Virus record (IMG/VR): IMGVR_UViG_3300009593_000078 | Coordinates: 1-30,971 of that record | DNA from: a virus | Direction: 5' to 3' (one strand) | Length of the DNA stretch: 30,971 bases | Shown: one piece after another, positions 9,866-30,971 of the stretch | Layout of the letters: each line of letters begins with the position of its first letter | Position numbering within the stretch: the stretch's first letter is position 1 | Program-made: the position numbers and the translations under genes | The notes under the pieces: model-generated | Seen by the model: the letters and a program-made list of their open reading frames with translations, nothing else | What the model was told of the DNA's origin: nothing | Databases searched by the model: none

Positions 9866-12474
9866 TGGGTTATAAACCAGACTTATTTGCACACAGACGT
9901 AAGAACCCTGTTGACAAATTAAGAGCAAATGCAGAACTAGACCACGGTATATATGTAGGCGAAGTTATTGTAAGACCTAAAGACGATACTAACAGTGGTC
10001 GTATTCCTGTATATATTCCTATGCTGTCTAAAGATAGAGATGACCCTACAGGATATTTTAACTGTTATTGGAGTTCTCCATTTGCAGGTAGTACGCCTAG
10101 TGAAAAGATTGGCAAGAACGTTAGGAGTTATGACGAAACAATTAAAACATATGGTATGTGGATGGTACCACCTGATCCAGGTAACTTTGTATTAGTTATT
10201 TTTGGTGATGGTAAGAAAAAGAATCCAATTATTATAGGTTGTTTATTTCCTGACCAATCACAGCATATGGTACCAGGCATTCCTGCAGGTCCAACATACG
10301 GAAGTAGTTTACCTTTACCAGTTGCAGAAAAGAATAAAAGAGAACCTGACCCAGATACAAGTAATAAAGTAAACAGACCATTACATCACATTTTAACAAA
10401 ATCAATATTAGACCAAGGATTAATAAACGATCCTATAAGAGGTATATCTACATCTGGTGCTAGAAGAGAAAGTCCTTCACAAGTATATGGTATATTAACA
10501 CCAGGACCAGAAGAGCCAAGTTTAATAACAGGCAAAAAAGATGGTACAAACAGACGTGGTGGACATTCGTTTGTTATGGACGATAATTTAGACCAACGAC
10601 ACATACGTTTAAGAACAGGGTTAGGAAATCAAATCCTAATGGACGACACAAACGGTCTTATATATGTTATAAACAGTAAAGGTACTGCTTGGGTAGAACT
10701 TGCAGAAGATGGAAGTGTCCATGTATTCAGTGATAAAAATATTAATATGCGTTCTACACAAGATATTAATTTCCATGCAGACAGACATATTAATATAGAA
10801 GCAGAAGAAAATATTAATATCCGTGCAGGCATATATACCACCAAGGAAGAAGATAAAGAAGCATCAGGTGGTGAAGAGGTAGTCACAGCAGGGCTAGGAT
10901 CAATTAAAATAGAATCCAGTGATTATGTAGAATTATTAGCGAAAACTGATTTTAATGCTACTGTAGGAATTGACTTAAACTTTAAAGCAGATCAAAATTA
11001 TAAAATTGAAGCAGTTGGTTCCGGAAATCTACTAGTAGGCGATACTCATAAGATTGGTGCTAGTGATATTATGGAACGTGCTAGTGGAGAAGTTAATTCA
11101 CAAGCAGGTGGTAATAATAATGTACTTGGATCAAATGTAAATCTAAACAACGGTGGAAGTGCAAGTGATCCAGACCCGGCGGTAATAGTAGAACCTTTTG
11201 AAAATCCAAATATAATAGATGATGTTCCTTCAGCCAAACCTGGTTGGGAATATGATGAAAAGAATCCAGGAGAAGCAAATCCATTACCAACTGAAGGTAT
11301 TAGAGAAGGTAAGGGTCGCGAAGTAAATACTATTTTAGATGTTGTACCTACAAGAGAACCTTGGGTAGGACATGCTTCGGCAACTGCCGTAACACAAGAC
11401 CCAGCGGCAATGACTTCAAAAGATGAGGCTGTAAAAGATACACCTACAAATGCTATTTCACAAAGTGATAAAGGACCGGCGACAGTTGGTCAATCAGATG
11501 GTTCGCATGATGTTGGTTTAGGATATGTACCTGAACAAGGTAACCCAGCACCAGGTCCTCAGTCAGAACCAATGTATAAAAAATCTGCAATTATGTCCGC
11601 TCCACAAGATGTAGCACAAGTTTGTAACAACATGCATGAAAACGGATTAGCAGATGCTGGAGCACAAGTTTTACAAAGTGCAGGACATAGTATTCCTACA
11701 CCAGTTACAAACAGCAGTGGTAATAAAGTAGTTGGTTATGGTCACATATTAGACAGCAATGAAATGTCAGCAGGTGCTACAATATTTGGCGATGGTAAAA
11801 TATTAGACCCACAAAGTGGTTTCAAAAATCCAGGTATGAAAAGACCAGCAAATGAATATGCTGAAATTATTATGAACGAAAGCGAACAAGGTATAAAAAG
11901 ATATGGTTTAACAAAAATAATGGGTGGTAATGGAAGTTATGCTATAGACGGAACTAAAAATTCAATAGTTCATAGACTATCAGATGCTATGACCACAGAT
12001 GTATCAAAAGCATTGGGAATGAATGGATTAAGTACAACAGGAAGAATTATTGCTGGTTCATTAACAGGCATGACTACAAAGCATAATAGAAATTCTATAT
12101 TGGCTATGACATTATTTGGAAATAGTATAGGTGAAAATAATTGGTACGGCAGTGATGTTAGAAATGCAATTAATCAAGGCGATTCAAATAATTTAGTTCC
12201 TCAACTAATGAACAAATGGATTACTAATTCAGTATATAGACCAACTCTTAAACAAAGACGTGTTTACGAAGCAACATTATTTGGAATGCCGGATCTTTAT
12301 GATATTAATGAAACTCCTAAAGCAAGTGGAATGGGTTGGGGTATTTTGGCAAACAGACTACGTCGAAAACAATACGAGTATTTCGCGGCTGATGGAATGG
12401 CTCCACCTGGTGGAATATACATAGGATCAAATTTTAGTATTAATCTAAAGGCTTTGGTTTCCCAGTACATTTAA
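9865..12474 (+). CDS. 5: Baseplate central spike / hub protein gp5
   Basis: An 869-residue spike protein. Residues 25-145 form the OB-fold of gp5/VgrG (Y.GEVIVRPKDD, GRIPVYIPML, YGMWMVPPDPGNFVLVIFGDG, IIIGCLF). Residues 235-440 show the short hydrophobic repeats of a triple-stranded beta-helix, including DINFHADRHINIEAEENINI. A Pro/Glu/Asp-rich linker covers about 440-570. The C-terminal region (575-840) has features reminiscent of T4-type lysozyme (GH24): VVGYGH (622-627), an AEIIMNESEQGIKRYG helix, and KW.TN..YR....RRV near 784-803. In T4 the lysozyme domain lies between the OB-fold and the helix; here it would be C-terminal, and the residues aligning with T4L Asp20 and Thr26 appear to be Asn and Val. 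The last 30 bases overlap a convergent gene. The gp5 call is firm, the lysozyme domain tentative. Confidence 0.87.
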   Translation: MGYKPDLFAHRRKNPVDKLRANAELDHGIYVGEVIVRPKDDTNSGRIPVYIPMLSKDRDDPTGYFNCYWSSPFAGSTPSEKIGKNVRSYDETIKTYGMWMVPPDPGNFVLVIFGDGKKKNPIIIGCLFPDQSQHMVPGIPAGPTYGSSLPLPVAEKNKREPDPDTSNKVNRPLHHILTKSILDQGLINDPIRGISTSGARRESPSQVYGILTPGPEEPSLITGKKDGTNRRGGHSFVMDDNLDQRHIRLRTGLGNQILMDDTNGLIYVINSKGTAWVELAEDGSVHVFSDKNINMRSTQDINFHADRHINIEAEENINIRAGIYTTKEEDKEASGGEEVVTAGLGSIKIESSDYVELLAKTDFNATVGIDLNFKADQNYKIEAVGSGNLLVGDTHKIGASDIMERASGEVNSQAGGNNNVLGSNVNLNNGGSASDPDPAVIVEPFENPNIIDDVPSAKPGWEYDEKNPGEANPLPTEGIREGKGREVNTILDVVPTREPWVGHASATAVTQDPAAMTSKDEAVKDTPTNAISQSDKGPATVGQSDGSHDVGLGYVPEQGNPAPGPQSEPMYKKSAIMSAPQDVAQVCNNMHENGLADAGAQVLQSAGHSIPTPVTNSSGNKVVGYGHILDSNEMSAGATIFGDGKILDPQSGFKNPGMKRPANEYAEIIMNESEQGIKRYGLTKIMGGNGSYAIDGTKNSIVHRLSDAMTTDVSKALGMNGLSTTGRIIAGSLTGMTTKHNRNSILAMTLFGNSIGENNWYGSDVRNAINQGDSNNLVPQLMNKWITNSVYRPTLKQRRVYEATLFGMPDLYDINETPKASGMGWGILANRLRRKQYEYFAADGMAPPGGIYIGSNFSINLKALVSQYI

Positions 12475-13658: not shown

Positions 13659-13665
13659 GGTTAGT

Positions 13666-13673
13666 GATAAATA
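13666..13673 (+). promoter_or_regulatory. T4-type late promoter abutting the gp25 start
   Basis: GATAAATA is identical to the motif before gp48 and lies upstream of gp25-gp6 and the giant gene. The last base of the motif is only five bases before the gp25 ATG, so with usual T4 late spacing the transcript would begin at or next to the ATG. Confidence 0.65.
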
Positions 13674-13678
13674 TTGAT

Positions 13679-14050
13679 ATGGCAAACATATACAAAGGGT
13701 TTAGTACAATAGGCAAGGTTAGGGCACCTTATACTCTTATTGACGGGGAATTGATTAAAGTAGATTTACTCAATGAACTAAAAGCAAGAAAAGGCGAGAG
13801 AGTTATGAGACCTAACTTCGGAACCACAATATATGACATATTGATGAACCCTATAGACCAGTACGTTATTGAAGAAGTAAAGGAAGAAGTAAGAAGGGTT
13901 ATAGAAAAAGACCCTAGAGTAGAAATAGACGAAATTTTTACTCAATCACAAGACCACCTTATAAGAGTACAAGTCCAATTAAGATTTTTGCCAACACTAG
14001 CAGAGGATAGATTATTTCTTGAATATGCTAGGACAGACGTAGAGATTTAA
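13679..14050 (+). CDS. 25: Baseplate wedge subunit gp25
   Basis: A 123-residue protein of the gp25/GpW lysozyme-like fold family, part of the inner wedge that contacts gp6 and gp53 and links the baseplate to the sheath. Diagnostic features are the N-terminal beta strands, LLNELKARKGERVMRPNFGT (about residues 30-49) with the conserved R.M.P.FG.. pattern, an ILMNP..QYVIEEV helix, and DPRVEIDEI before C-terminal strands. The length equals that of T4 gp25 within a few residues. ATG 13679 is used rather than an in-frame GTG at 13664, because the protein then starts with the usual MANIYKGF-type sequence and the GTG lies before the late promoter. There is no Shine-Dalgarno site. gp6 follows two bases after the stop. 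Confidence 0.93.
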   Translation: MANIYKGFSTIGKVRAPYTLIDGELIKVDLLNELKARKGERVMRPNFGTTIYDILMNPIDQYVIEEVKEEVRRVIEKDPRVEIDEIFTQSQDHLIRVQVQLRFLPTLAEDRLFLEYARTDVEI

Positions 14051-14052
14051 AA

Positions 14053-17000
14053 ATGGCAGTAAACAACAGACAAAATAATTTATTCGCGGCAGAAGATTGG
14101 GAAGTAGCCTATCAGGCATACAGCCAAGTCGACTTCCAAGCATACGACTTTGACTCCATGCGAACAGCAATGGTGGAGTATATCAAAACTAATTTCCCAG
14201 AGAACTTTAATGACTACATTGAAAGTTCAGAATTTATTGCTATTATAGAATTACTTGCCTACTTGGCACAAAGTATTTCATTTAGAATGGATGTAAACAC
14301 AAGGGAAAACTTTTTAGAAACAGCAGAGAGAAGAGATAGTGTTTACAAATTAGCAAGACAATTAGGATACAATCCAAAAAGAAATATTGCGGCTAGTGGT
14401 TTAATGAAAGTTGTAAGTATAGCAACTACAGAACCATTAACAGATAGTTTAGGTAACCAATTACAAACTGTAACAGTTAATTGGAACGATGCTAATAACT
14501 CAGACAGTTACGAGCAATTTATTACAATATTAAATAGTGCATTTGGAAATGTAAACAGATTTAGCAAGCCTATTAAAACAGGAACTATAGATGACATAGT
14601 AACAGACTTGTATGAAATTAATACACCTCTTACAAATCCATTAACACATGCCTTTAAGGCAAACTTAAATGGAATAGATAGATCCTTTGATTTTGTAAAT
14701 GCAGACTTTATAGATAACAAAGCAATATTTGAAAGACATCCAGACAAAACAAATAACTTTGGAATTATTCATAGAAATGACGGATTAGGATTAAGCAGTA
14801 AAGATAACGGCTTCTTCCTTATGTTCAAACAAGGTATTTTAGAATCAGAAGATTTAAACTTTACAGAACCTGTTGAAAATAGAACTGTTAATATTAATGT
14901 TGAAGACATTAATGAAACAGATACTTACTTACAACAAGTAGATGCTGTAGGAAATACATTAACAAAATGGCTTAAAGTTCCTAATACAGTAGGACAAACT
15001 TTACAGTATAATACTAAAGCAACAAGTTCATCATATTTGTATGCTATACAAAATAGAGGACAAGGCGGAGTTCAATTACAATTCGCAGATGGAAACTTTG
15101 CACATGTTCCTGTTGGTTCATTCAAATTCTATCACAGAGTAAGTGATGCAGAAAGATTCCAAATGCAACCAGACGATGTTGGTAACATAGTTGTAGGGAT
15201 ACCTTATAAGAATTCAGACGGTGTAGAATATGTTCTTACACTAACATTAAGATTACAAAATGCTGTTAATAATAGTTTACCGGCAGAATCAGCCGCAGGT
15301 ATAAAAGAAAGAGCACCTCAAAGTTTTTATGCACAGGACAGAATGGTATCAGCACAAGATTACCAAGTGCTACCTTTAAGTAAAAGTACAAATATTGCAA
15401 AACTTAAAGTTACAAATAGAACACATGCTGGACATAGTAGGTATATTGATATTACAGATCCTACTAGTACATTCCAAACAACAAATGTATTAGCAGAAGA
15501 TGGGGCATTGTTTATTGAAGACAGTAACATATCTAAAAACTTTGTAATTGATAACAACAATACACCACTTGAACAAATTACAAAAACACTTCCACTATAC
15601 TTAAAACAGTTAGAACTTAACGATTTTATTTACAGTGACTTTAGAGATAAGTGGTTATTAAGAGAGCCAAACAAATTTAATTTAGCATTGTACGGTATTA
15701 ACTGGCATTGTTTGCCTAAGACTGCAACTAACTCAACTGGGTACTTAACAGAAACATTTACCCAATCAGGTACAACTACAGATGTAAACATAGCAAATCC
15801 GACATTAGCATTAATACAGCCTGGGCATTTAATTAAATTCCAAAACCCAGCAGATATTACAGAAGAGAAATGGGTTAAGATTAAAAGCATTAGAGATAAT
15901 GGTAAACGTGTTAGTAACAATACAACTGTTACTGGTCCTATTACATTAAGTGAAAATGTACCAGAGGGTTGGGAAGGTGTACAAGTTATATCAACATTAA
16001 GAAAAACATTCTTTGATACAGAAATTACATCAATAACAAATGCTATGAACTTAAAACAAAGTTTTTCATTAGGATATAATCCTAGTTCAAATAGTTATTA
16101 TGTAATAGCAAACAATGATACATCTACTAATGAAGTATTTGACATAAACAATGCAGAAGATAAATCAGGTAACGGAAGGGATAGAAGTTGGTTAATAAAA
16201 TTTGATTATGTTCCTATCGATACATTAAGTCATAGATATAATGTAACAATTAGAGGAATACGTTATGTATTCGAAAGTTACGAAGATGTTAGATTTTATA
16301 ATGTTAATGAAAATAGAATAGTTGACAGTTTCACAGGAACTGCAAAATATGATACTATAGAAATTACAACACTTAATAATAAATCAAGAAGTGAAGAAAC
16401 ATTTGAATGGAGTGATACAGGCGTAGACTTTGTAGGCGATGCTTGGTACTCAACAAAGATTGGTCAAAGTTTTACAACTATACCTTTAAAAAATAGAGAT
16501 ACAAAATATGACCAAGTAGAAGTTAAACTTACTAGTAACTTTGGATTATTTAAAAATTCTGATGCAAGTGGTAATGCTTTTGTGCAAGACGCAACAATAG
16601 AGTTAGGCACTAATTACGATACATCAGACTTAACAAGTAATACTAATGTTACTATTGCTAACAACACAGGACAAGTTCATAGTTTACCAAGTAACATTAT
16701 AATTAACTTTACTAATACAACTTTTGGTGCAAACATTTTAGACTCAAACGGAAATGTTAGTTATAGATTTGAAAATACAAACTATAACAACGGTAACGTA
16801 ATGGGAAGTGGACATATTGAAGTTACAAATGCAAATGTTACAGCACAAACTGGAACATTAAGAATAAGCAACTTTAATAATAAAAGACATTTCTCAACAG
16901 ATGCTTCTGGGTTAGCGAGTAAAGATAAATTAACATTTACATATATTCAAGACAGAGAAAGATTAACAAAACCTATTACATATAGTGCAGTAGGTAACTT

Positions 17001-18447
17001 CAACTATCCAGATGGATATGTTGATCCAAGAAAAGTTCAAGTCACACCTATTAATACAACAGGTGATGACAGTCCTGATAATCCAATTCAATTTGCAGAA
17101 TTTGTTGCACTTGATGACGTAATCATTTATGAGGACTATAATAGTTTTGACGGGTACACATATACTAAACCAGTTAAAGCAGGAATACTAGATTTAAGAA
17201 GAGAAGATGGCGTAAACTTTAATACTGACTATAGTAAAATTGCAGGAGACTCTACAGGTGATGCTACAGCCAGCACTGGTACAGTTTATAATACTGCTGA
17301 CTATGATTACTATTTGGTCAAGAAAGAAAGTATTATAGATACATTTGATAATTCAAACATAGGTGGAAAACTACACAATAAAAAAGTTTATGCTAAAGAT
17401 ACAGGCAAAGTTTATATTATGACATATAGTAGTACAAACTTAAATGTTGTTAAGCACTACGAAAGTTCTAACCATAGAGCAAAACATGGTAAGTCATTTA
17501 CACAAAACACAAAATCAACTTACCAAGAAGGTGTAATATTCAAATGGCAACATATTGCAAACAACAGTATGAGAATAGACCCAAGTATTAGTAATGTACA
17601 TGAGATGTTCATGCTTACAGAAACATATCACGATAAAGTTAAATCATACTTAAATGTTCCAGGAACTGCATGGCCCAAAGAGCCTACAAGTTCTGAACTA
17701 GAAATAGAGTTTGCAAACTTAGAACAATATAAATCTGCAAGTGACCAACTATTATTTAAGAGTGGTAGATTCAAATTATTATTTGGAGATGATGCAGACC
17801 AAAACTTACAAGCAAGATTAAAAGTTGTAAGATTGCCTGGAACAAGTTTAAGTGATAACGAAATTAAAACAAATATCATTCAAGCAATTAATCAATACTT
17901 TGATATTGAAAATTGGGATTTTGGTGATACATTCTATTTCACAGAATTAAGTAGTTACATTCATCAACAAGTAGGTAACTCTATAGGAAGTATTGTTATA
18001 GTACCTAAGAGTACTGCTGGAGTATTTGGAGACTTATTCCAAGTTAAATGTGAATCAGACGAATTATTTTTAAGTACAGCAAAAGTTACAGATATTGATA
18101 TTGTAGATAAACTAACAAGTGATAATTTAAGACCAACAACTGTTGGTAGTCAATCATTTAGTAGTTACGACAATTCAACTGAAGCAATTGGTCCATATGC
18201 TATTGACGGATACTATCCGTTATATGCAACGGCAGAGGCGGCTAATTTTGCAGGTAATGGTTCACACCAAACGCATGTGTTCTTTGGTAAAACATTTTAC
18301 ATGCCAAACGGTGTAACATTCTATCATGGAAACTATGTTGTTGATAATACTACATCAACTACTACAGCAAATGCAGATATAACAAATAACACTACAGGAA
18401 CTTCTGCAGGAAGTTCAGGAAGTGGATCTAGTGGTTCAGGCTATTAA
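14053..18447 (+). CDS. 6: Baseplate wedge subunit gp6 (enlarged, baseplate J-like)
   Basis: A 1,464-residue protein whose two ends match gp6, the wedge protein that forms the iris-like ring triggering sheath contraction. The N-terminal 115 residues carry the family signature: F.AYDFDSMR..MVEYIK..., a strongly conserved helix (ELLAYLAQSISFRMDVNTRENFLETAERRD split over 75-100) and the following LARQLGYNP. The C-terminal part (about 1,215-1,320) has the baseplate J-like tail with KTNIIQAINQYFDIENWDFGDTF. Between them lies a long, Asn/Thr/Ser-rich beta region (about 500-1,190) absent from T4 gp6 (660 residues). A Gly/Ser-rich tail ends the protein. The reading frame is uninterrupted, so it is one long polypeptide rather than a frameshifted pair. 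It lies two bases after gp25. Confidence 0.9.
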   Translation: MAVNNRQNNLFAAEDWEVAYQAYSQVDFQAYDFDSMRTAMVEYIKTNFPENFNDYIESSEFIAIIELLAYLAQSISFRMDVNTRENFLETAERRDSVYKLARQLGYNPKRNIAASGLMKVVSIATTEPLTDSLGNQLQTVTVNWNDANNSDSYEQFITILNSAFGNVNRFSKPIKTGTIDDIVTDLYEINTPLTNPLTHAFKANLNGIDRSFDFVNADFIDNKAIFERHPDKTNNFGIIHRNDGLGLSSKDNGFFLMFKQGILESEDLNFTEPVENRTVNINVEDINETDTYLQQVDAVGNTLTKWLKVPNTVGQTLQYNTKATSSSYLYAIQNRGQGGVQLQFADGNFAHVPVGSFKFYHRVSDAERFQMQPDDVGNIVVGIPYKNSDGVEYVLTLTLRLQNAVNNSLPAESAAGIKERAPQSFYAQDRMVSAQDYQVLPLSKSTNIAKLKVTNRTHAGHSRYIDITDPTSTFQTTNVLAEDGALFIEDSNISKNFVIDNNNTPLEQITKTLPLYLKQLELNDFIYSDFRDKWLLREPNKFNLALYGINWHCLPKTATNSTGYLTETFTQSGTTTDVNIANPTLALIQPGHLIKFQNPADITEEKWVKIKSIRDNGKRVSNNTTVTGPITLSENVPEGWEGVQVISTLRKTFFDTEITSITNAMNLKQSFSLGYNPSSNSYYVIANNDTSTNEVFDINNAEDKSGNGRDRSWLIKFDYVPIDTLSHRYNVTIRGIRYVFESYEDVRFYNVNENRIVDSFTGTAKYDTIEITTLNNKSRSEETFEWSDTGVDFVGDAWYSTKIGQSFTTIPLKNRDTKYDQVEVKLTSNFGLFKNSDASGNAFVQDATIELGTNYDTSDLTSNTNVTIANNTGQVHSLPSNIIINFTNTTFGANILDSNGNVSYRFENTNYNNGNVMGSGHIEVTNANVTAQTGTLRISNFNNKRHFSTDASGLASKDKLTFTYIQDRERLTKPITYSAVGNFNYPDGYVDPRKVQVTPINTTGDDSPDNPIQFAEFVALDDVIIYEDYNSFDGYTYTKPVKAGILDLRREDGVNFNTDYSKIAGDSTGDATASTGTVYNTADYDYYLVKKESIIDTFDNSNIGGKLHNKKVYAKDTGKVYIMTYSSTNLNVVKHYESSNHRAKHGKSFTQNTKSTYQEGVIFKWQHIANNSMRIDPSISNVHEMFMLTETYHDKVKSYLNVPGTAWPKEPTSSELEIEFANLEQYKSASDQLLFKSGRFKLLFGDDADQNLQARLKVVRLPGTSLSDNEIKTNIIQAINQYFDIENWDFGDTFYFTELSSYIHQQVGNSIGSIVIVPKSTAGVFGDLFQVKCESDELFLSTAKVTDIDIVDKLTSDNLRPTTVGSQSFSSYDNSTEAIGPYAIDGYYPLYATAEAANFAGNGSHQTHVFFGKTFYMPNGVTFYHGNYVVDNTTSTTTANADITNNTTGTSAGSSGSGSSGSGY

Positions 18448-18458
18448 TGGTAAAGTAA

Positions 18459-21400
18459 ATGGCAGATAAGAAATATACAAAACTACCAGTAGTTAATCAA
18501 ACAACAACAATCAAAAACTTTTTTGATTCGACTGTTGAGCAACTGTTCTCAAAATCAAATATTGAGAGCATAAGTGCTTATACTGGCTCCAAAGACTTTG
18601 AAGTATTTACTCCTGAAGATACATATTTGCTAGAGCCAACTGCTGATAGAAACAAGTATAGTTTAGAACCTGTAGTTAATAACATTAATCAGTTATCAGG
18701 ACGTAGTGAAAACAACATGTTCTATGATGACTTTTTAAATGTATTAAGAAGTGCAGGAGCAGATTCACAAAATCAAAATACATTATTTGATACTAACTTT
18801 TATAGTTTCTTACCACCCATAAACATAGATAAATTTATTAACTACCAAGAATACTATTGGAGTCCAACAGGACCTACACCAAAAATTATTAGTGGTACAT
18901 CAACTAATCCTATTAATGTTGAAAAAGATATTATAGGAAAGAAAACATATACAGCACCAGACGGAACAGTATTTAAAAATGGAATGATGGTTTCCTTTAG
19001 TGGAGACAATGTTATTCCTAATACTTACAAAGATGAGAAACGTTGGATTATAGAAGGTGTTGGTACTAGTATATTGTTGATGAACAGAGACCAAAACTTT
19101 GCAACAACATTTAGTACAGAAGATTATATTTTATTTGATAGAACAATAATTGATACAGCAACAGATACTTTAATTAATACAAGCAGTGATGAAGATGACA
19201 CTAGATGGAAATCAGGTGGATTAGTAGGTGTTGCCAACTATGTTGACGTAGATGGATTTAGTTACACTGATAATAATCAAGTAGATGCTACTAGTGGTCT
19301 TCCTATGTGGGACGGATATGTAACTCCAGTAGGACTACAATTACAATATGTTGTAGGAGGCATTGGAGCATACGATACAGAACCTTACGATAGTGATAAC
19401 ACTCAAGATGTTCCAGACTATATGGTTATGCAACGTGGTTCTAAAGACAACAACGTTTGGAGTAGGATTAACTTTTGGTATCACAGACAAAACTTTTTAG
19501 ATGCTGGTGATTCATTACCTAAGAAAGAGAAAAGAGCAGTAAGACCTATTTTAGAGTTTGATAGAGATTTAGAATTATATAACTTTGGAACTAAAGGTGT
19601 AGACGCAGTTGAAATTGCATCCTTTGATAATTTAAAAAGCGAAGTAGTAGGCAGACCAAACGGTGGTGTTATAGACGGAGTTACACTAGAAGTTGGTAAC
19701 AGAATTATGTTCCCCAACGAAGAAACTAGCATAGCACAAAAAATTTATACTATTGGCAGTAATGGTGCTAGTCCTTCATTAGTAACACTTACAGAAGAAA
19801 GTTATACTGCAAGTATAGGCGATGTAATTAGTATTAAGTTTGGTGCTAGAAAGCAAGGTGTTGAATATTATTGGGACGGTACAAAATGGCTAGAAGGTCA
19901 AAAGAAAGATAAAGTTAATACACCTATATTATTTACAGCATACGACTATAACGGTGTTAAGTTAGATGATGTTGCAACATATCCAAACAGTGACTTTAAA
20001 GGAACAGAGATTTTTAGTTATGCACCTAATACAGATCCTAAAGCAACAGATGATAGTGTTTTAGGTTTCCCAATTAAGTATGCAAACTTTAATAACTTTA
20101 GTGAAATATGTTTTGATAATGATTTAGAATGTGATTTATATTCATACATAGCATTTGGTGGTACAAATAAAACTGTAATAAAAGGTTACATTTATTATAA
20201 GAAAACACTTCCTAATGGAAATGAAATTAAAGAAACAAGTTGGAAAGCACAAGAAAAGAAAACGAATCAAAAAGTAGAAGACAGATATATTGTAAACGAT
20301 AGTGATATTGCTAACAACAGAACAATATGGGAAATTACTGCTAAACCAGAAGTAGATGAAAGCAGTATATTAGTTTTTGTAAACGGTAAACGTAATCAAT
20401 CATTTAGTTACAATGATACTTTTACAGCAATTACATTTGCTACATTTACATTTAGTAAAGATGATGTAATTGATATTAAAACAAAAACTACAACAGGTTA
20501 TATTTTAGATGCTAACAGAAGTGGACGTTATAACATTCCTTTAAGTTGGCACAGTAACTTAGATAATCAAGATATTAAAACAGTTGCACAGCCACAATAC
20601 TTAGAACACTTTTATAGATTAATTAAAGACCAAGATACTATAACAGGTGAGCCTTTAGGAACAAATAACTTTACAGACTTAGATGTAGATACATCTAAAG
20701 CAGATAAAATTGTTCAAACAGATGACGACTTGCAAATGGCAGGATGGTTACTGAGTAACGATAAGTTTAATATAAGAGATGCAATAGAATTTAATAGTAA
20801 CGAATATGTAAAATATAAAAATAGACTTAAGAAAGAAATTAAAAGATATGTCGATAACAACGACACATCAAACATGAGTTATGGTGCAATATTAGAACTT
20901 GTACTAGAAAGTGTTATAAGTTTTAATCAAGGCAAGAATGTTTTTGATTATACTTACATGGCGGCATTTGGCGACCAATACAACGAACAAGCAGTAGTAG
21001 TAAACAATGTATTGCAAAAAGCATATACATTATCAAAGTATTGTGACTTAACAAAATTAGAAAATAGTTTATATGTATATGAACTAGGCACAGACGGAAT
21101 AGAAAAATTATTAGTTGCAGAAAAAGATTATACAATATCCAGTACAACAACTGCTAATACTGTAAACTTTACAGATAGTTTTACAATGACACTTGGTAAT
21201 ACATTCAAGTTTAGAATATATGATTCGAATAGGGAAAGTACACAAACTCCACCTACACCAAGTGCTATGGGACTTTATCCTGCAACACAACCAGAAATTA
21301 TTACAGACAATACTTTTAAAGAACCAATTAAAGTTATTGTTGGACATGACGGCAGTAAAACAGTAGCCGCAAATGATATACATGACTTTGTATTATTAGA

Positions 21401-24400
21401 ATTTGAAAACAGAATTTGGAATGGTATATTAGCAGAGTACAGACAAAAAGATAGTCAATATGATTTGAATATCCATTCAATAAGACCAGGACATTATAGA
21501 AGTGATACAGGATTAACAAGAACAACATTTTATAACTTGTTAAGAAATAACTTTAATCAATTCTTAAACAGAAATAATGTAGACTTTGTTATTAATGAAT
21601 ACTACGATGCAAGTAATTACTTTACATGGAATTACAATAGTGGAACTGTTAATCCAGGATATTGGAGAGGCATATATGAAAATGCTTACGATACAGAAAG
21701 ACCACATACACATCCTTGGGAGATGCTAGGATTTGTAATTAAACCAACATGGTGGGATACTGAATATATCACAACAACATTTACAGATTATAGTAGTGCT
21801 AATAAACCTATGTGGAAAGATTTAGAAGAAGGTATTATCAGACTAGGTAGCAGAGAGAATGTAACAAACAATAGATATAGAACAAATAACCCTTACAGAA
21901 GAATTGGTCTTAAATTAAATTTACCTGTTGATGCAAGTGCTAATTTAATAGCACCAGCAAATATTGTTAGTACAAATGCAACAACAAAAACTGTTACTTG
22001 GGTTGAAACAGCAACAGGAACTGCAACAGCAAATGCAAATTCATTCATTAAAACTGTTGACGGAGTAACTGTACAAGAATTAGATAGTGGTGCAAACATT
22101 AATATTACAACAAATAATATTATAAATCATACTACTGGTACATTCCCAACTACAGATAATACAAACGAGATTGAAGACAAGTTAATTAAGTACACCATTA
22201 CAACTAACACAGGCGACAATACAGCAGGAGACTTTGCTAATGCTACAACAACAGGTAGTACAGCAGTTGGTGTTGCTGTTAATGGAGCACAAATATTTAA
22301 TGCCAGCACAGGTAATTTACATTCACTGAGCAACTCATTCACATACTCACATGAATTTAGAAATGATGTGAGTAAAGATAGTGCTGGCGGTTTTGTTAGT
22401 AGTAATAACATATATGGTTATGTACAACCTAGACCACAAACAGTAGGACTTTCAGCACAATGGGAAACAACTGTTCATTCACCTATAGTAGGTTGGGCAT
22501 TTGATGGTTTACCTATTTATGGACCATATGGTTATACAGATAGATTAGACTCAACTAGTGCAATTAAAAGAATAGAAAGTGGTTACAGTTTAAAAACTGC
22601 ATTAAGAACAACAGTAGGTGGAACACCAAATGGAGAATTTGTTGAAGATTATGAATACGGTGCTTCAACAGGCGACTTAGATGAATTTAATTCACGTTAT
22701 GGTGTAACTCCTGAATTCCCAAGTGGAACAAGATATTATGTAGCAACAGTGGATAGCGATTTGAATCCAGCATATCCATTTACAGTAGGTCCTAAATATT
22801 TCTTTACACCTACAAGTTTAAGTACAAATGCTACAGGTACAGCAACACATGTTAGCGGTACAGAAAATTATAACAATACAAGCAGTCAAAGTATAACGTA
22901 TAGTACAGATACGTCACTAACAGATAAGAATTGGAAATTTGGAGATGGTGCGCCAGTTGAAAACGCATGGAAAATTTCTGAAGCATATCCCTTTGCAATA
23001 GCAGAGGCCCTTTTACTTACCAAGCCCGGTAAGTTTGCCAGTGTGTTTGCAGAGCCAGGAAAAATAGTTCGGGCTTCTGCAAACACCAACCATTTATTAG
23101 ATAAGACAAGTTATAAAAGATATAAAGTTAAAGATGCTACATTACATGGTAGTGTAGATACAAATAATAATATGCTGACTGCTACAGGTTGGTCACCATT
23201 TATAGATTCATATTTAAGATTCCAAGGACTTAATCCTGTAGAAGAATTTACTAAACCATTTAAAACTGTAAACAGTAAATTAGGACATAAGTTAGCAGGC
23301 TTTATCGACAAAGACACAATGACTGTGTTTAGTGACAACTATAGTACAACTGGTAACAGTTCAAGTTTAATTCTTCCACAAGAAGATTTACAAGTAGATG
23401 TACATGTTGGACCATATGCTTCAACAAATGACTACACAGGTGTATTAGTACAATTAACAACTACAGACAAATACAAAGTGTTTGGATACAACAGTACTAA
23501 AAAATATTTTGAAATAGAAACAAGTGATGTTAATGGACCAAAGACTCAAGTTAAAGTAGGTGGCGAGCCTATAGAAACTACTAACTACGATCCAACAACT
23601 CAATACAACGAAGGTTCTATTATTAAGAGTGGATACAACTACTTTAGAGCAAAGACAACAGCCACAGCAGGTAGTAATGTAACTAATACGGCTATATGGC
23701 AACGTTTAAGTTCATTACCTACAGTAGGCGGAGCAGAAGCAACAAACTACCTTTCAGGAACAGGAACGATACAAAGAGTTGAATATGGAACAGAGTTTGA
23801 TACAGTAGCAGAAGTATATGACTTCTTAATTAGTTTAGGAAGACATCAAAAAGTTATGGGTTATAACTTTGGTGATTACGATGATGAAATTGCAGATGTA
23901 AATGATTGGGCATATAGTGGAAAACAATTTTTATTCTGGAGTATAGGTAAATGGGCCGCAGGTAATACAATTAATTTAAGTCCGTTTGCAGGAAAACTTA
24001 CATTCATTGCTCCAATAGGAAAAGTTAGTGCAATAAAAGATATAGACCAAGGACAATTTAGTTTACTAGATGAAGAAGGTAAAAAAATTAGTCCAACAGA
24101 ATGTGAAATTCTTAGAGATGGTAATAAGATAGAACTTAAACCGCCAGTAGGAAAAGAATTATACGGAGCATTATTATATACAAATGAAATAGAACATAGT
24201 TTATTAGTATCAAACAAAACTATTTTTGGTGATACAATTTTTGATGATGTTTACAACCAAAGACAAGCAAGATTAAAACTTAAAGCAAAACGTACAGGTA
24301 ATTGGAACGGAACATTATCAGCAGACGGATATATTATACAAGGTGAGGAACTATTGCCTAACTTTGATACACTTGCAAGTGATATAGGCAAATACAATGA

Positions 24401-27400
24401 GATTGGACATGTGCCTGTACAAAAACAATTATATGAAGCAAGTAGAAGACAATACGGATATCAAGAAAGAAAATATTTAAGAGAATTTGAACTTACTCAA
24501 GATGACCAATATGATTTTTATATGGGTATGATTAGAAGTAAGGGTACACAAAATGCATTAAAGATTTTGTTAAACAGTGATAAAGTTTTAGTACCAGGTA
24601 GTGTTAATGTATATGATGAATGGGCATTAAAACTTGGAGAATTTGGTGATATAGATAATCAACAAAGTTTAGATTTAAAAATAAATCAATCAGAAGTTAA
24701 AAATGAAAAGCAACTTATACAAATTTCTTATCCTGAAAATACAGTAAGTAAAGTTAAAGAAGTTGAAGTATTAGATAGAACAACTAAATTCTTCCAAAGA
24801 CCGTTCTTAGAAATTGAACCACCACCAGCAGAGATTCCAGGAAGTTTCACATATGGTGGAGGAACAACTGCATTAGCAACAGTTAATATAGGACAAGACG
24901 GAACAATTACAACAGTAGATGTTACAGAGCCAGGATATGGTTATACAACTAATCCGGCTGTAACAGTTATTGCGGCGCAATTATTAACTGCAAATATTAG
25001 TACAAGTTACATGCAACCTTATGCAACAAGTAATACTTACATTACTAATACAGGTGACTTAACAGGTGTTGCTAACATTACAATTACTGACCACCATGCA
25101 AATGCAAGTCATTATCCAACTACTATTGACTTATCAACAGTAGCAAGTGGTAGTGCCACAAATGCACAAATGGTTGCAAATGTTATTAGTGCTATTAATA
25201 CTACAATGGCAAACGTGCCATTAGATCCAACTATTACAGCAAACATTGGTGTAACAAGCGGAAACAGTTTAATAAGAGCAACGTCAGAACGTATAGCAAA
25301 TGCTACAACAGAAAACTTTGTTATTACACTTAAAGGTTCAGACTTTACACTTGCAGGCAGTGGTTTAGCAAACTTAGATATAGAAGCAAAAAGATATCAA
25401 CCAAGACAGAGATTTAGTTTTGAGAGTGCAAACAGTACAACATTCTCAGATATAACAGCAACAGTTAATGGTACAGCAACAACAGGTAATGTTGTTGGTG
25501 GAACTAATAACGATTGGGAATTTGATTCAGGTAGTAGAACAACAATTACAAATACTTCATTAGCAGATAGTGGTAACATAAGTTTTGTGTTTGCTCCATT
25601 AAGTAGGTCAGATGAATTATCTGAAGCAGGTAATATTGCTACAGATAATTTAACAATTATAGATGGAACATATCCACACATTGATGTTTACATTGATGGA
25701 ACAAAACTTGAAGAAAGAGTTACAAATCCTTTATATACAATTTCAAGTATAGCAAGTGATACAACTAACTCATATATTAACTTTGCAAATGTACAATCAT
25801 TACCAGGTGGTAATTTATCTGCAGATGCAAAAATTGTTGTAGATGAAAGAGCAACAATAGACTTTGTAGATGCATATCAAGGTGACTTACCAGGTGCAAG
25901 TCTAAATATTAAAGTTGAGGCAAGTGATGCCTTAGCCGCAAAACTACAACAAATTAGAACATATGATATTACTCCAGATAGTAAATCCGATTCAACAATA
26001 TTAATAGACGTTGACGATGCAAATAGGCTAGTTGTAAGACCTAGAGACATGTCAGAAAAAGGCTTATGGCCCACAACTACAAAAGCAGACTATACAGGTA
26101 TAACAGATAAAGATTATAACCCACTACCTAATGCAGGTTATATAAGCAAATATAATGTTGACTATCAAGCATTTGATTTATTCGATTTTGAAAGATTATT
26201 TGATAGAGCGGCAAGAAAAGCAAGTGAGATTCCTTTAGAGGATGAAATAGTACATTTTGCTAGAAGTGAACACGGTGAATTTGATGTTTACAAATTAGCA
26301 AATGTTAGTGCAAATGTATCTTATGTTAAGAATAACGAAGCAACAGGGTCTATGAAACTGTTTACAGATTTACAATTAACAGAAAATGCATTAGACTTTA
26401 ACGACTTATCAAATACTGATGCAAGTTATGACCATACATCAAATTGGGATAACCTAATTGTACTTAAAGGTAACAGTTCATTAAACGATGACGAAACTGC
26501 ATTAAGATTCTTAGACGGTGAAAAGGTTTATGATACAACTATACCTGATACATCATCAGAAGTTGTTGTATGGAATAATGAACAAAGAATATTTGACGAA
26601 GCAGTAAGCATAGGAAACGTAGCATACAATACTGCGGCACTTAAATCAATTACAAAAATTAAACCAGTATTAAGTGGTAACATTACTGCTATTGGTAGCG
26701 ATGCATTTAGTAATGTAAGTGTAACTGCTAATGCGGCATTGGCACCTACTACAGTAGCAATGGATATATGGAGACATGTAACAGCAGATACTCACCCGTA
26801 TAACTTTAATGGTACACCAGCATTTAAAATTAAACAAGGTGACATAGACGGTGTTAGACCAGGACATTATCTCAAATTCGCTGATACTAGTCTTACTAAT
26901 TTAGATGGTAAGGTATTACAAGTTGCAAGTGTAAACAACACTTTAAGAGAAGTAATAGTATATGCAAATACTTCAATAATGAGTGGTATGGCTAATAGTG
27001 TGCCTAAAGCAAACTTAACTTTTGCAAACTATGGAACAACATCAACAGCAAATAGTTCAGGTAACTATAGTGTTCAAATATTTTCTGAGAAGCATGGATA
27101 TACAGGCGACAATACAATTAAATTCTCAGGACACAATTTAGGTAAAGCACAAGGTACAGCATTTACTCCAACAAACGTAACTGTAAACACATTCTTTGTT
27201 GAAGGTATAGCAAGTGGTAACGCAACATTAGATGTAACAGACGATGCCGGTACTCAAACAATAGGACTAGTTAGTGATACAGTTAAACTTACAACAGATT
27301 CTTTAGACGGAGTTACAGCGGCTAATTTAGTACCAGGTGCTTATGTATCTATTACAGACCCTGCCGGTGGTAACATGAATGGAAATGTTTTTCAAGTTTC

Positions 27401-30400
27401 AAATATAAGAACAGAATTATTACCTGCAGAACAAACATCAACTGACAGTATTAGCCAGAACGTTGAATGGACTGATAGTGTTATTTCTAATGTTACAGCA
27501 AGAACATTTATCGAACTTAATAATGGTAAAACACAAAATATTTTCCCTGGGTTAGGACTTAAAGCAAGTGGTGTTGATCCTAAACTTGTAAAAGTTACTA
27601 GAGTAGAGTATGCTAGAAATACATCAATAGCAGGATTAGTAACTGATGTAGTTTCATCCAGCACCACAGTTAATGTTGATACAACTGCTGGTATGGAAGT
27701 AGGCATGGTTATAGGGAACACAGGCTATAGTGCAATAGATTCACCGGCTTTGGCAGATATTACTATTGCAAGTATTGTTGACAATAACACAATAACAGTT
27801 AGTACTGCAATTACTATAGATGCTAATACATACTTTACTGCAACTAAACTTGTAGATGAACCTAGAGTAATTAAAGTTAGATTAAATAATGCAGTTACAT
27901 TAAGTGCTAACGATGAAGTAGAATTTATACGAGAAACTGTTGAAACAGAATTCAACACTTTACCAGAAAGAAGTGTTACATCATTTGAAATTCCAAAAGG
28001 TAATATTTCAGCAGATGCAAATAATATTACTTTTGTTGTGCAAGACGCAACAAGCATCACAACAGATGCAACTATAACAGATTTAATTACTTTCCAAAAC
28101 ATTAAACTAAATCAAATTGGAAAGTATAGTGAAATTAATACAGTAAGAGATTATAATACAGGAAATAAAACAATTAAAATAGATGGTGTATATACAGGAG
28201 AATACAGTATATCGGATACTGCAAGTAGTACACTAACAGATAGTAATGAATTATTACTAACTACAGGTAATGTAAATTTATTTGCAGGCATGACAGTTAC
28301 TGGTGGTAATATTGCAACTAAAATTGTTACAGTTAATGGTACAGCAAACGTAACATTAGCAAGTAATATTGCAATTACATCTGGTACGGCTGTTACAATT
28401 GGAGAAGACTTATTAGGTAATGCAACATGGACTAGTAACCAATTAGAAATTACTACAGCAGAAGACCATGGATATGAATTAGATTCTTCAGGTAACGTAC
28501 AAACAATCGTAGGCGAGAATATTAGAATTTATAACTACGAGCCTGAATACTACAACTATACATTTAAAGTAACAGGTGTACCAACAGCAAACACTCTTTA
28601 TGTAGAAGGTTATGCATTGGATCACCCATACGTTGATAGCGGAGTTGAATACATAGGTAAAACAGACTTTGAAGCATATGGAAATCTTGCTTTACAAACT
28701 AGTCCATCTGCAAACATTAATGTGCAGTATGGTAATACAACAGTATCAAGTCCTAGGGTAACATTCCTTGTTGACCAACACGAAGGTAATATTTCAATTA
28801 ATGGTGCAAACGTTGTTACTAATGCTTTCCCATATATAAATATGGACGAATATAAAGATGAAGTTGAAAGACAACTTATATCTAAAGCAGGTGCAGTAAT
28901 TCACTCAGGAAGTTTAAGATTAGGTTTCCCAATTAATGTACCATCCCATTTATTTGGCGGTAAAGGAAAACACGGTAGGGATCTACATAAAACGACTTTA
29001 CATAATGCGGCTAGAGGAGGAAAAAATTTAGTTACTCCTCCACCAAAACCGCCAATAGGTTCAGTAAAACTTCCAAATAATACATCCACTAATGCACAGA
29101 ATCCTAACTTGTTGCCTAATACAAAGTCTAATCCAAAGATTAAACCTAAGAAAACTAATCCAGTAAGAACATTTTATGCGGCTAGTAACTCTTATACATA
29201 CAATGGAGTAGGTACTCCATATACAGGAACAATACCTCCTGGTGTTACAAAACACATTCACTACGGTGGCGGCGGATTAAGTGTCACAGTACCAGGTGGA
29301 CCTAACGGAGGAATGATATTAGAAACAGGATTAGGAACACAAAATAAAAAACTACCATACATGCCAGGTCATCCAAATTATGTGAAGCCAGGTGGCGGAA
29401 CAGGAAGTGGTCCTCCTGCAGGTGGTAATACCACTGGTAATGCAGGAACACAAAAGAATACAGGTCAACCGGCGGCGGGTGTGGCAAACAATGGTACAAT
29501 AAGTGTTGGCGGCGGTAACTATGGACAAGGAAATCCAGGATATGTTAATCCAGGAAAAGTAGTAACAGCAGATCCAACAGGGCAAAAAACATATAAGAAT
29601 CAAAGCACAGTTACTCCAGGAATTAGTTTCCTAGTACCTGTAACAGATATATTAATAGACCAGAAGAAACGAACAGATTGTCCTCCGGCACCTCCGGCTC
29701 CACCTCCTCCACCCGCAAAGCCTGATATATTTTATATTAACGACTTTGTAACATACAGTGGTAAGACAGGGCAAACAGAAACTAAGAAATATACTTTCAC
29801 AAAGTTTAATGGTGCAGACTATACTATTAAAATGTTGTTTAACATGTATAGTGCCCAAGATAGATTAGAAGTATATCAAAGTTCAACACCTAATACAAGA
29901 GGTAGATTAATAGCAAGTACTAGAAACTTCACTCAACTTACACCTAAAGAAAAGAATGATTTTGCAAAAGCAGGTGCGGCTCATACTAGACCAGCAACTG
30001 TAGGTTCATTGGGAGATGGGTTTGTTGAGTACACAGGTACATTTAGTTGGGTTTATAATGCAGATAACGGAAGATATATTACAACAGTATTAGACAAACA
30101 TCCTAAATCAAGTATTGCATATCAATACAGCATGAACTATCCTGTGGATAAAGATATGGTTGCTAGTGCAAGAGGACAAAGTGTACAAGGACCTGGAATA
30201 CCACAAGCAGGTTGTTCCCAAGTAACTCCTACAGCAGTTGCACAACCGCCATTAACTGGAGGATACAATATTGCAGTTATACCAAACTTTGGTAACTTAA
30301 TGGCAGGAGGACTAGGACTAGGCGGAGGTCAAAATGCTCACCTAAATATTGGAAATTGGGCAACCGGTCATAATTACTCAGGTATATTTGCAAACTTTAC

Positions 30401-30971
30401 AAATATAACTGGTATAACTAACACAGGTACAAAACCAAATACAAGTATTGGTACAAGTGCAACAAGCATTACACCTAGCATACCAACAGCAGGAACGGGT
30501 GGTATAACTAACCCTAATGCTAATCAAGTTACAGGTGGCACAGTTGATATGGGTGGAAAAATATGTACACAATATATTAGTGTTACGCCATTAGAAAAAC
30601 TAAACGGAAAATATGTACCAGGTGCTCCTGTACAAGTTCCATCATGTCCTCCAAAACCAAGAGTTAAAATTTGTGGACAAGCAGATGGTGTTGGTAGAGG
30701 AGATACATTTGCTATTAATGGTAAGAGTATTAGTTTAAGTGGTTCAGTAGATTTAAAAGTTGTTAAGCAAGAAATAGAATCACAAGCAGGTGATGAAGTT
30801 AAAGTATCAATGGAAACTATTAATGGTGAAACATGTATTTCTATTAATACTATTAAAAGAGACCAAATGATTATTAGAAATGGTTGCGCCGGTGGTGCGT
30901 TAAAAGAAGTACTAGATTATTCAGTACAACGTGACCAACAAAACTGTTTCACTCCTACACCGCAGACTGAG
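18459..30971 (+). CDS. Giant virion structural protein with a YHYH-like domain (3' end outside the window)
   Basis: An open frame of 4,171 codons from ATG 18459 to the window edge with no stop, 12 bases after gp6. In T4 this position holds gp7, the wedge protein; marine relatives carry giant structural proteins here. The N-terminal 1,100 residues are rich in Tyr, Trp and Asp (for example NYQEYYWSPTG and GFVIKPTWWDTEY). Residues 1340-1359 read HSPIVGWAFDGLPIYGPYGY, the hallmark of YHYH domains. From about 2,100 to 3,400 it is Thr/Asn/Ala-rich, low-complexity beta sequence. The C-terminal part has Gly-rich linkers (about 3,640-3,700), a proline run (3742-3752, PPAPPAPPPPP), a beta-sandwich-like segment (about 3,765-3,890) and Cys-containing modules. 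Likely a baseplate or fibre-like virion protein; I could not assign it firmly to gp7. Ribosome site weak. Confidence 0.85.
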   Translation, partial: MADKKYTKLPVVNQTTTIKNFFDSTVEQLFSKSNIESISAYTGSKDFEVFTPEDTYLLEPTADRNKYSLEPVVNNINQLSGRSENNMFYDDFLNVLRSAGADSQNQNTLFDTNFYSFLPPINIDKFINYQEYYWSPTGPTPKIISGTSTNPINVEKDIIGKKTYTAPDGTVFKNGMMVSFSGDNVIPNTYKDEKRWIIEGVGTSILLMNRDQNFATTFSTEDYILFDRTIIDTATDTLINTSSDEDDTRWKSGGLVGVANYVDVDGFSYTDNNQVDATSGLPMWDGYVTPVGLQLQYVVGGIGAYDTEPYDSDNTQDVPDYMVMQRGSKDNNVWSRINFWYHRQNFLDAGDSLPKKEKRAVRPILEFDRDLELYNFGTKGVDAVEIASFDNLKSEVVGRPNGGVIDGVTLEVGNRIMFPNEETSIAQKIYTIGSNGASPSLVTLTEESYTASIGDVISIKFGARKQGVEYYWDGTKWLEGQKKDKVNTPILFTAYDYNGVKLDDVATYPNSDFKGTEIFSYAPNTDPKATDDSVLGFPIKYANFNNFSEICFDNDLECDLYSYIAFGGTNKTVIKGYIYYKKTLPNGNEIKETSWKAQEKKTNQKVEDRYIVNDSDIANNRTIWEITAKPEVDESSILVFVNGKRNQSFSYNDTFTAITFATFTFSKDDVIDIKTKTTTGYILDANRSGRYNIPLSWHSNLDNQDIKTVAQPQYLEHFYRLIKDQDTITGEPLGTNNFTDLDVDTSKADKIVQTDDDLQMAGWLLSNDKFNIRDAIEFNSNEYVKYKNRLKKEIKRYVDNNDTSNMSYGAILELVLESVISFNQGKNVFDYTYMAAFGDQYNEQAVVVNNVLQKAYTLSKYCDLTKLENSLYVYELGTDGIEKLLVAEKDYTISSTTTANTVNFTDSFTMTLGNTFKFRIYDSNRESTQTPPTPSAMGLYPATQPEIITDNTFKEPIKVIVGHDGSKTVAANDIHDFVLLEFENRIWNGILAEYRQKDSQYDLNIHSIRPGHYRSDTGLTRTTFYNLLRNNFNQFLNRNNVDFVINEYYDASNYFTWNYNSGTVNPGYWRGIYENAYDTERPHTHPWEMLGFVIKPTWWDTEYITTTFTDYSSANKPMWKDLEEGIIRLGSRENVTNNRYRTNNPYRRIGLKLNLPVDASANLIAPANIVSTNATTKTVTWVETATGTATANANSFIKTVDGVTVQELDSGANINITTNNIINHTTGTFPTTDNTNEIEDKLIKYTITTNTGDNTAGDFANATTTGSTAVGVAVNGAQIFNASTGNLHSLSNSFTYSHEFRNDVSKDSAGGFVSSNNIYGYVQPRPQTVGLSAQWETTVHSPIVGWAFDGLPIYGPYGYTDRLDSTSAIKRIESGYSLKTALRTTVGGTPNGEFVEDYEYGASTGDLDEFNSRYGVTPEFPSGTRYYVATVDSDLNPAYPFTVGPKYFFTPTSLSTNATGTATHVSGTENYNNTSSQSITYSTDTSLTDKNWKFGDGAPVENAWKISEAYPFAIAEALLLTKPGKFASVFAEPGKIVRASANTNHLLDKTSYKRYKVKDATLHGSVDTNNNMLTATGWSPFIDSYLRFQGLNPVEEFTKPFKTVNSKLGHKLAGFIDKDTMTVFSDNYSTTGNSSSLILPQEDLQVDVHVGPYASTNDYTGVLVQLTTTDKYKVFGYNSTKKYFEIETSDVNGPKTQVKVGGEPIETTNYDPTTQYNEGSIIKSGYNYFRAKTTATAGSNVTNTAIWQRLSSLPTVGGAEATNYLSGTGTIQRVEYGTEFDTVAEVYDFLISLGRHQKVMGYNFGDYDDEIADVNDWAYSGKQFLFWSIGKWAAGNTINLSPFAGKLTFIAPIGKVSAIKDIDQGQFSLLDEEGKKISPTECEILRDGNKIELKPPVGKELYGALLYTNEIEHSLLVSNKTIFGDTIFDDVYNQRQARLKLKAKRTGNWNGTLSADGYIIQGEELLPNFDTLASDIGKYNEIGHVPVQKQLYEASRRQYGYQERKYLREFELTQDDQYDFYMGMIRSKGTQNALKILLNSDKVLVPGSVNVYDEWALKLGEFGDIDNQQSLDLKINQSEVKNEKQLIQISYPENTVSKVKEVEVLDRTTKFFQRPFLEIEPPPAEIPGSFTYGGGTTALATVNIGQDGTITTVDVTEPGYGYTTNPAVTVIAAQLLTANISTSYMQPYATSNTYITNTGDLTGVANITITDHHANASHYPTTIDLSTVASGSATNAQMVANVISAINTTMANVPLDPTITANIGVTSGNSLIRATSERIANATTENFVITLKGSDFTLAGSGLANLDIEAKRYQPRQRFSFESANSTTFSDITATVNGTATTGNVVGGTNNDWEFDSGSRTTITNTSLADSGNISFVFAPLSRSDELSEAGNIATDNLTIIDGTYPHIDVYIDGTKLEERVTNPLYTISSIASDTTNSYINFANVQSLPGGNLSADAKIVVDERATIDFVDAYQGDLPGASLNIKVEASDALAAKLQQIRTYDITPDSKSDSTILIDVDDANRLVVRPRDMSEKGLWPTTTKADYTGITDKDYNPLPNAGYISKYNVDYQAFDLFDFERLFDRAARKASEIPLEDEIVHFARSEHGEFDVYKLANVSANVSYVKNNEATGSMKLFTDLQLTENALDFNDLSNTDASYDHTSNWDNLIVLKGNSSLNDDETALRFLDGEKVYDTTIPDTSSEVVVWNNEQRIFDEAVSIGNVAYNTAALKSITKIKPVLSGNITAIGSDAFSNVSVTANAALAPTTVAMDIWRHVTADTHPYNFNGTPAFKIKQGDIDGVRPGHYLKFADTSLTNLDGKVLQVASVNNTLREVIVYANTSIMSGMANSVPKANLTFANYGTTSTANSSGNYSVQIFSEKHGYTGDNTIKFSGHNLGKAQGTAFTPTNVTVNTFFVEGIASGNATLDVTDDAGTQTIGLVSDTVKLTTDSLDGVTAANLVPGAYVSITDPAGGNMNGNVFQVSNIRTELLPAEQTSTDSISQNVEWTDSVISNVTARTFIELNNGKTQNIFPGLGLKASGVDPKLVKVTRVEYARNTSIAGLVTDVVSSSTTVNVDTTAGMEVGMVIGNTGYSAIDSPALADITIASIVDNNTITVSTAITIDANTYFTATKLVDEPRVIKVRLNNAVTLSANDEVEFIRETVETEFNTLPERSVTSFEIPKGNISADANNITFVVQDATSITTDATITDLITFQNIKLNQIGKYSEINTVRDYNTGNKTIKIDGVYTGEYSISDTASSTLTDSNELLLTTGNVNLFAGMTVTGGNIATKIVTVNGTANVTLASNIAITSGTAVTIGEDLLGNATWTSNQLEITTAEDHGYELDSSGNVQTIVGENIRIYNYEPEYYNYTFKVTGVPTANTLYVEGYALDHPYVDSGVEYIGKTDFEAYGNLALQTSPSANINVQYGNTTVSSPRVTFLVDQHEGNISINGANVVTNAFPYINMDEYKDEVERQLISKAGAVIHSGSLRLGFPINVPSHLFGGKGKHGRDLHKTTLHNAARGGKNLVTPPPKPPIGSVKLPNNTSTNAQNPNLLPNTKSNPKIKPKKTNPVRTFYAASNSYTYNGVGTPYTGTIPPGVTKHIHYGGGGLSVTVPGGPNGGMILETGLGTQNKKLPYMPGHPNYVKPGGGTGSGPPAGGNTTGNAGTQKNTGQPAAGVANNGTISVGGGNYGQGNPGYVNPGKVVTADPTGQKTYKNQSTVTPGISFLVPVTDILIDQKKRTDCPPAPPAPPPPPAKPDIFYINDFVTYSGKTGQTETKKYTFTKFNGADYTIKMLFNMYSAQDRLEVYQSSTPNTRGRLIASTRNFTQLTPKEKNDFAKAGAAHTRPATVGSLGDGFVEYTGTFSWVYNADNGRYITTVLDKHPKSSIAYQYSMNYPVDKDMVASARGQSVQGPGIPQAGCSQVTPTAVAQPPLTGGYNIAVIPNFGNLMAGGLGLGGGQNAHLNIGNWATGHNYSGIFANFTNITGITNTGTKPNTSIGTSATSITPSIPTAGTGGITNPNANQVTGGTVDMGGKICTQYISVTPLEKLNGKYVPGAPVQVPSCPPKPRVKICGQADGVGRGDTFAINGKSISLSGSVDLKVVKQEIESQAGDEVKVSMETINGETCISINTIKRDQMIIRNGCAGGALKEVLDYSVQRDQQNCFTPTPQTE

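Follow-up and report, generated by a model that had tools for sequence, protein, structure and literature searches.

A giant gene directly after gp6 in a probable jumbo-phage fragment: a candidate gp7-position baseplate wedge protein

In phage T4, gp7 joins two gp6 chains into the baseplate wedge and carries peripheral proteins. Other phages encode far larger structural proteins, and in huge phages sizes of up to 7,694 aa have been reported (PMC7162821). The replacement of gp7 by a large protein has also been proposed before, in that pelagi- and cyanomyophages are claimed to use VrlC in place of gp7 (PMC7029224). Here we describe a giant gene on a marine viral fragment of 30,971 nucleotides (IMGVR_UViG_3300009593_000078, positions 1 to 30,971; the whole stretch is called the window below). 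We read its product as a gp7-position baseplate wedge protein, equivalent to gp7, of a jumbo myovirus of the RaK2/PA5oct type, and give this reading a probability of about 0.6. In the literature on such giants, no earlier description was found of the gp7-core assignment, the lost YHYH motif or the tally of inserts.

The giant gene and its missing end

The gene starts with an ATG on the plus strand and stays open for 4,171 codons (18459..30971) until it runs off the contig, taking up 40% of the window. Since the window is the whole of a fragment that IMG/VR records as linear, it is the contig that ends here and not the gene, of which only the 5' part is present. At the base composition of the window, a frame open for this long would arise by chance with a probability of about 10^-152, and the other two plus-strand frames contain 322 and 567 stops. 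The choice of the ATG is supported by the N-terminal motif MxDKxYxKLP, which is conserved across the relatives.

The closest complete relative is G001 (IMGVR_UViG_3300012928_000017), an independently assembled contig whose giant is 86% identical to the window protein at the N-terminus and is complete and free of stops through 5,752 aa. In a pairwise comparison, residue 4171 of the window protein aligns to residue 4095 of G001, so that about 1,660 residues are missing from the former; its full length is put at about 5,800 aa, with the N-terminal ~72% carried by the window. A codon comparison of the two genes gives dN/dS values of 0.12–0.44 in every 300-codon block, which indicates purifying selection on the gene over its whole length in the window.

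The preliminary description had reported an uninterrupted gene of more than 4,171 codons after gp6, and had itself raised the concern of an assembly error hiding stops. The source is indeed a metagenomic fragment, and some relatives carry the giant as two or three separate genes, as might be expected if a frame artefact had joined genes or concealed stops here. However, the same unbroken frame is found in many independent contigs and in isolate genomes, and dN/dS remains below 0.45 throughout the giant. The dN/dS range and the reading frame of G001, which continues unbroken, make such an error very unlikely; we regard it as refuted for practical purposes, and the uninterrupted gene stands.

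By its sequence, the window protein belongs to an already known family of oversized virion proteins. It matches phrog_10938 over its full length in three stretches (E 3e-269), and a tblastn search with residues 1-1,000 as the query gave 57 phage records, mostly from jumbo phages and none of them reaching 60% identity; a phmmer search of the giant against the PDB gave no match. The homologue in PA5oct carries an ESI-MS/MS note in its record, the sole record with mass-spectrometric evidence from virions. Among the marine relatives in IMG/VR, complete single-gene giants have 5,279–7,103 aa, and the contigs G023 and G025, which are more distant, have giants of 4,480 and 4,487 aa. In one relative, a giant frame of 6,546 aa lies on a contig of 340 kb, which makes it very likely that the window derives from a jumbo phage as well.

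In three contigs the giant is found as two or three adjacent genes, with summed lengths of ~8,070–8,410 aa. Split giants occur in L020, L027 and L034 (G009, G015 and G019 in the other numbering) and in L017/L039. In L017/L039 the break comes behind residue 789 of the first part, and each of the two ends that it creates bears a YPLY...FYMPNG domain. The gp6 protein of the window (14053-18447) ends in this same domain, there with the pattern YPLY...HVFFGKTFYMPNG...YHGNY, which suggests a mobile terminal domain common to wedge proteins.

Conserved cores and inserted domains

With G001 as the ruler, pairwise comparison and iterative profiles define four cores that are common to all or nearly all members: A (residues 1-1190), B (1490-2190), C1 (4540-5205) and C2 (~5340-5610), of which C2 is found in fewer of the distant members. 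C1 and C2 lie beyond the end of the window contig, and G001 has both. In the window, core A (18459..22028, plus strand, as are all parts of the giant below) is the region shared by all jumbo-phage members and was modelled with a pLDDT of 68, and core B covers residues 1490-2191 (22926..25031). Core A contains a beta domain (residues 838-925, 20970..21233) whose fold matches fibre-docking and wedge domains. The best comparison is with the P1 baseplate chain 9vzk_Y (Z 9.8, 2.2 Å over 79 residues), a chain of the length of T4 gp6 (5iv5_A) gives Z 6.9, and T7 gp17-N and CBA120 TSP4 are also similar (Z 9.8 to 6.9 across the matches). The fold is widespread in tail proteins and non-specific.

A YHYH domain (PF14240) is found between cores A and B, at residues 1256-1433 (22224..22757), with E 4e-30 and 105.7 bits against a curated cut-off of 25. 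It occupies this place in the marine members, and PA5oct, RaK2, Atu_ph07 and SCTP-2 are without it. YHYH domains are predicted to be metal-dependent hydrolases with a histidine metal site (PMC7824862). The FHYH motif of the domain, as seen in G011-G013, has become YGYV in the window and in G001, which makes catalysis by the window copy unlikely; of the histidine motif, only the histidine of HSPIVGWAFDG is left. A hydrolase function through YHYH was therefore rejected for this copy. Across the family, the FHYH motif is kept in G011, G012, G013, G015 and G019, and lost in the window, G001, G004, G009, G014 and G022.

Within core B there is a small domain of the chitin-binding type, similar to CBM5/12 (PF02839; residues ~1703-1755, 23565..23723). 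The Pfam model is matched by seven of 24 family members (best E 8e-8), and comparison with chitin-binding domains gives Z 6–7 and ~2 Å over ~46 residues. It is followed by the KGT domain (residues 1942-2122, 24282..24824), which by profile comparison is the candidate gp7 core, and by one GxGY...PxV repeat unit (residues ~2134-2180, 24858..24998), of which other giants have many copies. The rest of the window protein is a variable middle (residues 2192-4171, 25032..30971) that is absent from PA5oct, RaK2 and SCTP-2, and whose composition marks a Gly/Pro-rich linker at ~29016-29738. Aromatic residues make up 12–13% of residues 1-1200 and 6–8% of residues 2801-3600, and residues 3601-4000 have 15% Gly and 9% Pro, so that the change of composition noticed at the outset is borne out.

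The suggestion that this is a modular protein built by domain accretion also holds up. The region from ~2170 to 4540 of the giant is mostly lineage-specific, and this region and the YHYH domain are lineage-specific inserts in a shared core. On comparison of the sequences, this supports the view that the giants differ in size because mobile domains were inserted into a core the size of RaK2's protein, ~3,300 residues. The family allows stepwise domain accretion to be traced from 3.3 to 8.4 thousand residues.

Mobile domains of this kind and Thr/Asn/Gly-rich beta regions would also be at home in a tail or side-fibre adhesin, a mainly receptor-binding fibre for which the place after gp6 would be incidental, and the homologue in syn9 is annotated as a 'putative fiber'. 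Against this, cores A and B are large and invariant across phages of unrelated hosts, unlike host-range tips, and separate fibre-like genes lie downstream of the giant, which leaves the adhesin improbable. In the relative, the stop codon of the giant is followed by a gene for 209 aa and a fibre-like gene. A tape measure protein, often the longest gene of a phage (PMC8570332), has still less in its favour, as the giant is strand-rich and Thr/Asn/Gly-rich in composition and predicted structure, is without long helices, and sits in a wedge operon; this identity was rejected.

Position after gp6 and the link to gp7

The window encodes several baseplate proteins ahead of the giant, all on the plus strand. 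These are a gp53-like wedge protein (6958..7257; E 7e-4, below the Pfam cut-off), a gp5-like hub protein identified by profile matches, with a weak lysozyme match (9865..12474), the wedge protein gp25 (13664..14050; PF04965, E 1e-9), and gp6 itself (14053..18447, 1,464 aa; phrog_10646 E 6e-302, phrog_219 E 2e-17, and hhalign E 1e-5 against T4 gp6). The end of gp6 at 18447 adjoins the start of the giant at 18459. On the minus strand are an alpha/beta-hydrolase-like ORF between gp5 and gp25 (12632-13312), with Pfam matches below cut-off, and a SegE-type GIY-YIG homing endonuclease near gp46/gp47 (1172-1606; PF19835, E 5e-33).

The order gp25-gp6-giant, with the giant at the position of gp7, recurs elsewhere as described for the window. 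In PA5oct, Atu_ph07 and RaK2 the giant directly follows gp6, usually with gp25 ahead, and in SCTP-2 it follows an unannotated protein of 3,096 aa in the place of gp6, presumed to be gp6 (L004:8606-17896). The same order is found in the isolated T4-like cyanophages P-HM2, ACG-2014f, RB11-B and syn9, where three of the four giants are annotated as gp7 or 'baseplate wedge initiator'. The PHROGs category of PHROG 10938, 'head and packaging', counts against gp7. Every context examined is that of a baseplate wedge, and the category is probably a misfiling.

A link to gp7 in sequence is harder to establish. Profiles of T4 gp7 do find the cyanophage giants, through T4 residues 731-833 (E 1e-6; with hhalign, P 96% and E 1e-9). 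With the jumbo giants they give no significant hhalign or hmmsearch match, and the gp6 control worked (E 1e-5). Nine segments of the giant compared by hhalign with T4 gp6-gp12 gave nothing above background, and T4 gp8, gp9 and gp10 against 33 windows reached E 0.01-0.1 at best and were rejected. The comparison with T4 gp7, gp8 and gp10 that the preliminary description had suggested thus yields nothing with direct profiles, but the cyanophage gp7 core picks out one stretch of 180 residues in the jumbo family. This is columns 451-630 of core B, residues ~1942-2122 of the window protein, with the motif DFYxGMIxSKGT. The match has E 1.2e-4 and is the best of 39 windows (next best E 0.008). Its score exceeds those of all 300 column shuffles, and the reversed control gives E 0.3. 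With larger alignments the register is unchanged and E is 1.1e-4 to 1.7e-4 (1.1e-4 to 1.9e-4 overall). The T4 counterpart of this candidate shared core is gp7 residues 732-833. This test used main copies only, because segments B and C0 draw dozens of small matches that represent the GxGY repeat. Similarities between cyanophage and jumbo giants in the repeat and the GERIEY-type domain were set aside as mobile domains and not as whole-protein homology.

The hhalign probability of the match is only ~50%, and the structure model at this place is poor, so that the evidence for the link is moderate and homology to T4 gp7 through the KGT domain is weakly supported. Prediction by segments, another check that had been proposed, gave a model of core A and an AlphaFold model of residues 1010-2205 that was usable only at ~1649-1914. 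The gp7 fold was not confirmed, and the KGT domain has a pLDDT of ~40, so the model is no test of it. The places in the Foldseek and VIA lists went to matches of the CBM5/12-like domain and of the beta domain at 838-925, and the absence of gp7 among the matches listed therefore says nothing.

It is worth considering a giant that is attached to the baseplate and not homologous to gp7, that is, an unrelated scaffold or fibre anchor after gp6 with a chance or convergent likeness in the KGT domain. The lack of a direct match to T4 gp7 profiles fits this, as do the fibre-docking type of the beta domains in core A, a CBM5/12-like module suggestive of receptor or glycan contact, and the precedent of VrlC (PMC7029224). 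A KGT match that is the best of its set and above all shuffles speaks against it, as does synteny with giants annotated as gp7, and we consider it unlikely, though a serious competitor.

If the giant is instead the gp7-equivalent wedge protein, as we prefer, its gp7-like core (1942-2122) would tie the chain to the wedge of gp6, gp25 and gp53, and the protein would act as a long clamp on the gp6 ring that carries peripheral parts, by analogy with T4 gp7. The remaining chain, with its beta domains, CBM5/12-like and YHYH domains, repeats and linker-rich middle, would reach outwards. These domains may supply the fibre anchoring and the surface or glycan contacts that are elsewhere placed on separate proteins such as gp8, so that the giant's own extra domains would replace separately encoded belt proteins. 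The family, its position, the cores and inserts and the detection of one homologue by mass spectrometry are observed, whereas the model infers the contact with gp6, the copy number, the orientation and what the CBM-like and YHYH modules do.

Searches with gp7-core and gp8 profiles found neither in the genomes of PA5oct, Atu_ph07, SCTP-2 and RaK2 (287–490 kb) nor in the 340-kb relative, and the same searches match the T4 and cyanophage controls; they were a loose first pass that divergent copies may escape. This is consistent with a giant that replaces several wedge and fibre genes, as had been suggested, but leaves that part unproven, and fibre-like genes are still encoded separately behind the giant. 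For the suggested expansion of a wedge protein, the gp7 position holds, and the homology is weakly supported by the KGT match. A bolder version is that, in this jumbo-phage clade, one continuous chain of 5,800–8,400 residues, encoded by one or a few genes, took over the tasks of gp7, of gp8 and of some of the fibre-anchoring belt, stretches from the gp6 ring out to the face of the baseplate that meets the receptor, and grew by mobile domains within a fixed gp7-type core; we offer it tentatively, as a possibility with the odds against it.

One candidate core domain would link T4 gp7, the 'wedge initiators' of cyanophages and the 'virion structural proteins' of jumbo phages, which are annotated apart from one another. 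Should the assignment be true, many giants now listed as 'head and packaging' or hypothetical could be re-annotated as baseplate wedge proteins.

Comparison with known giants

T4 gp7 (1,032 aa) shares with the window giant the position after gp6 and the candidate core, but is four to eight times shorter and gives no direct profile match to the jumbo giants. The giants of huge phages are of the same size class and some are annotated as structural; the likeness seen is one of size and annotation (PMC7162821).

The gp7 giants of cyanophages (PHROG 2885/701) have ~4,450 aa in P-HM2, 4,225 aa in ACG-2014f, 4,337 aa in RB11-B and ~6,076 aa in syn9. They resemble the window family in the gp25-gp6-giant order, the YHYH domain, the GxGY repeat and a small GERIEY-type domain. 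However, their gp7 core lies near the N-terminus (around residue 200, or ~700 in syn9) and not around residue 2000 as in the window giant, and cores A, B and C1 were undetected in them by profile search.

The closest known proteins are the members of PHROG 10938 in jumbo phages, namely RaK2 ORF070 (3,326 aa), PA5oct gp355 (3,857 aa, about 400 kDa), SCTP-2 gp140 (3,807 aa) and Atu_ph07 gp180 (4,449 aa). They have in common with the window giant cores A and B and the position directly after gp6. The lineage of the window differs from them in the extra YHYH domain and in a middle of up to ~2,400 aa, and its complete marine relatives mostly have 5,300–7,100 aa, compared with 3,300–4,450 aa in these jumbo phages.
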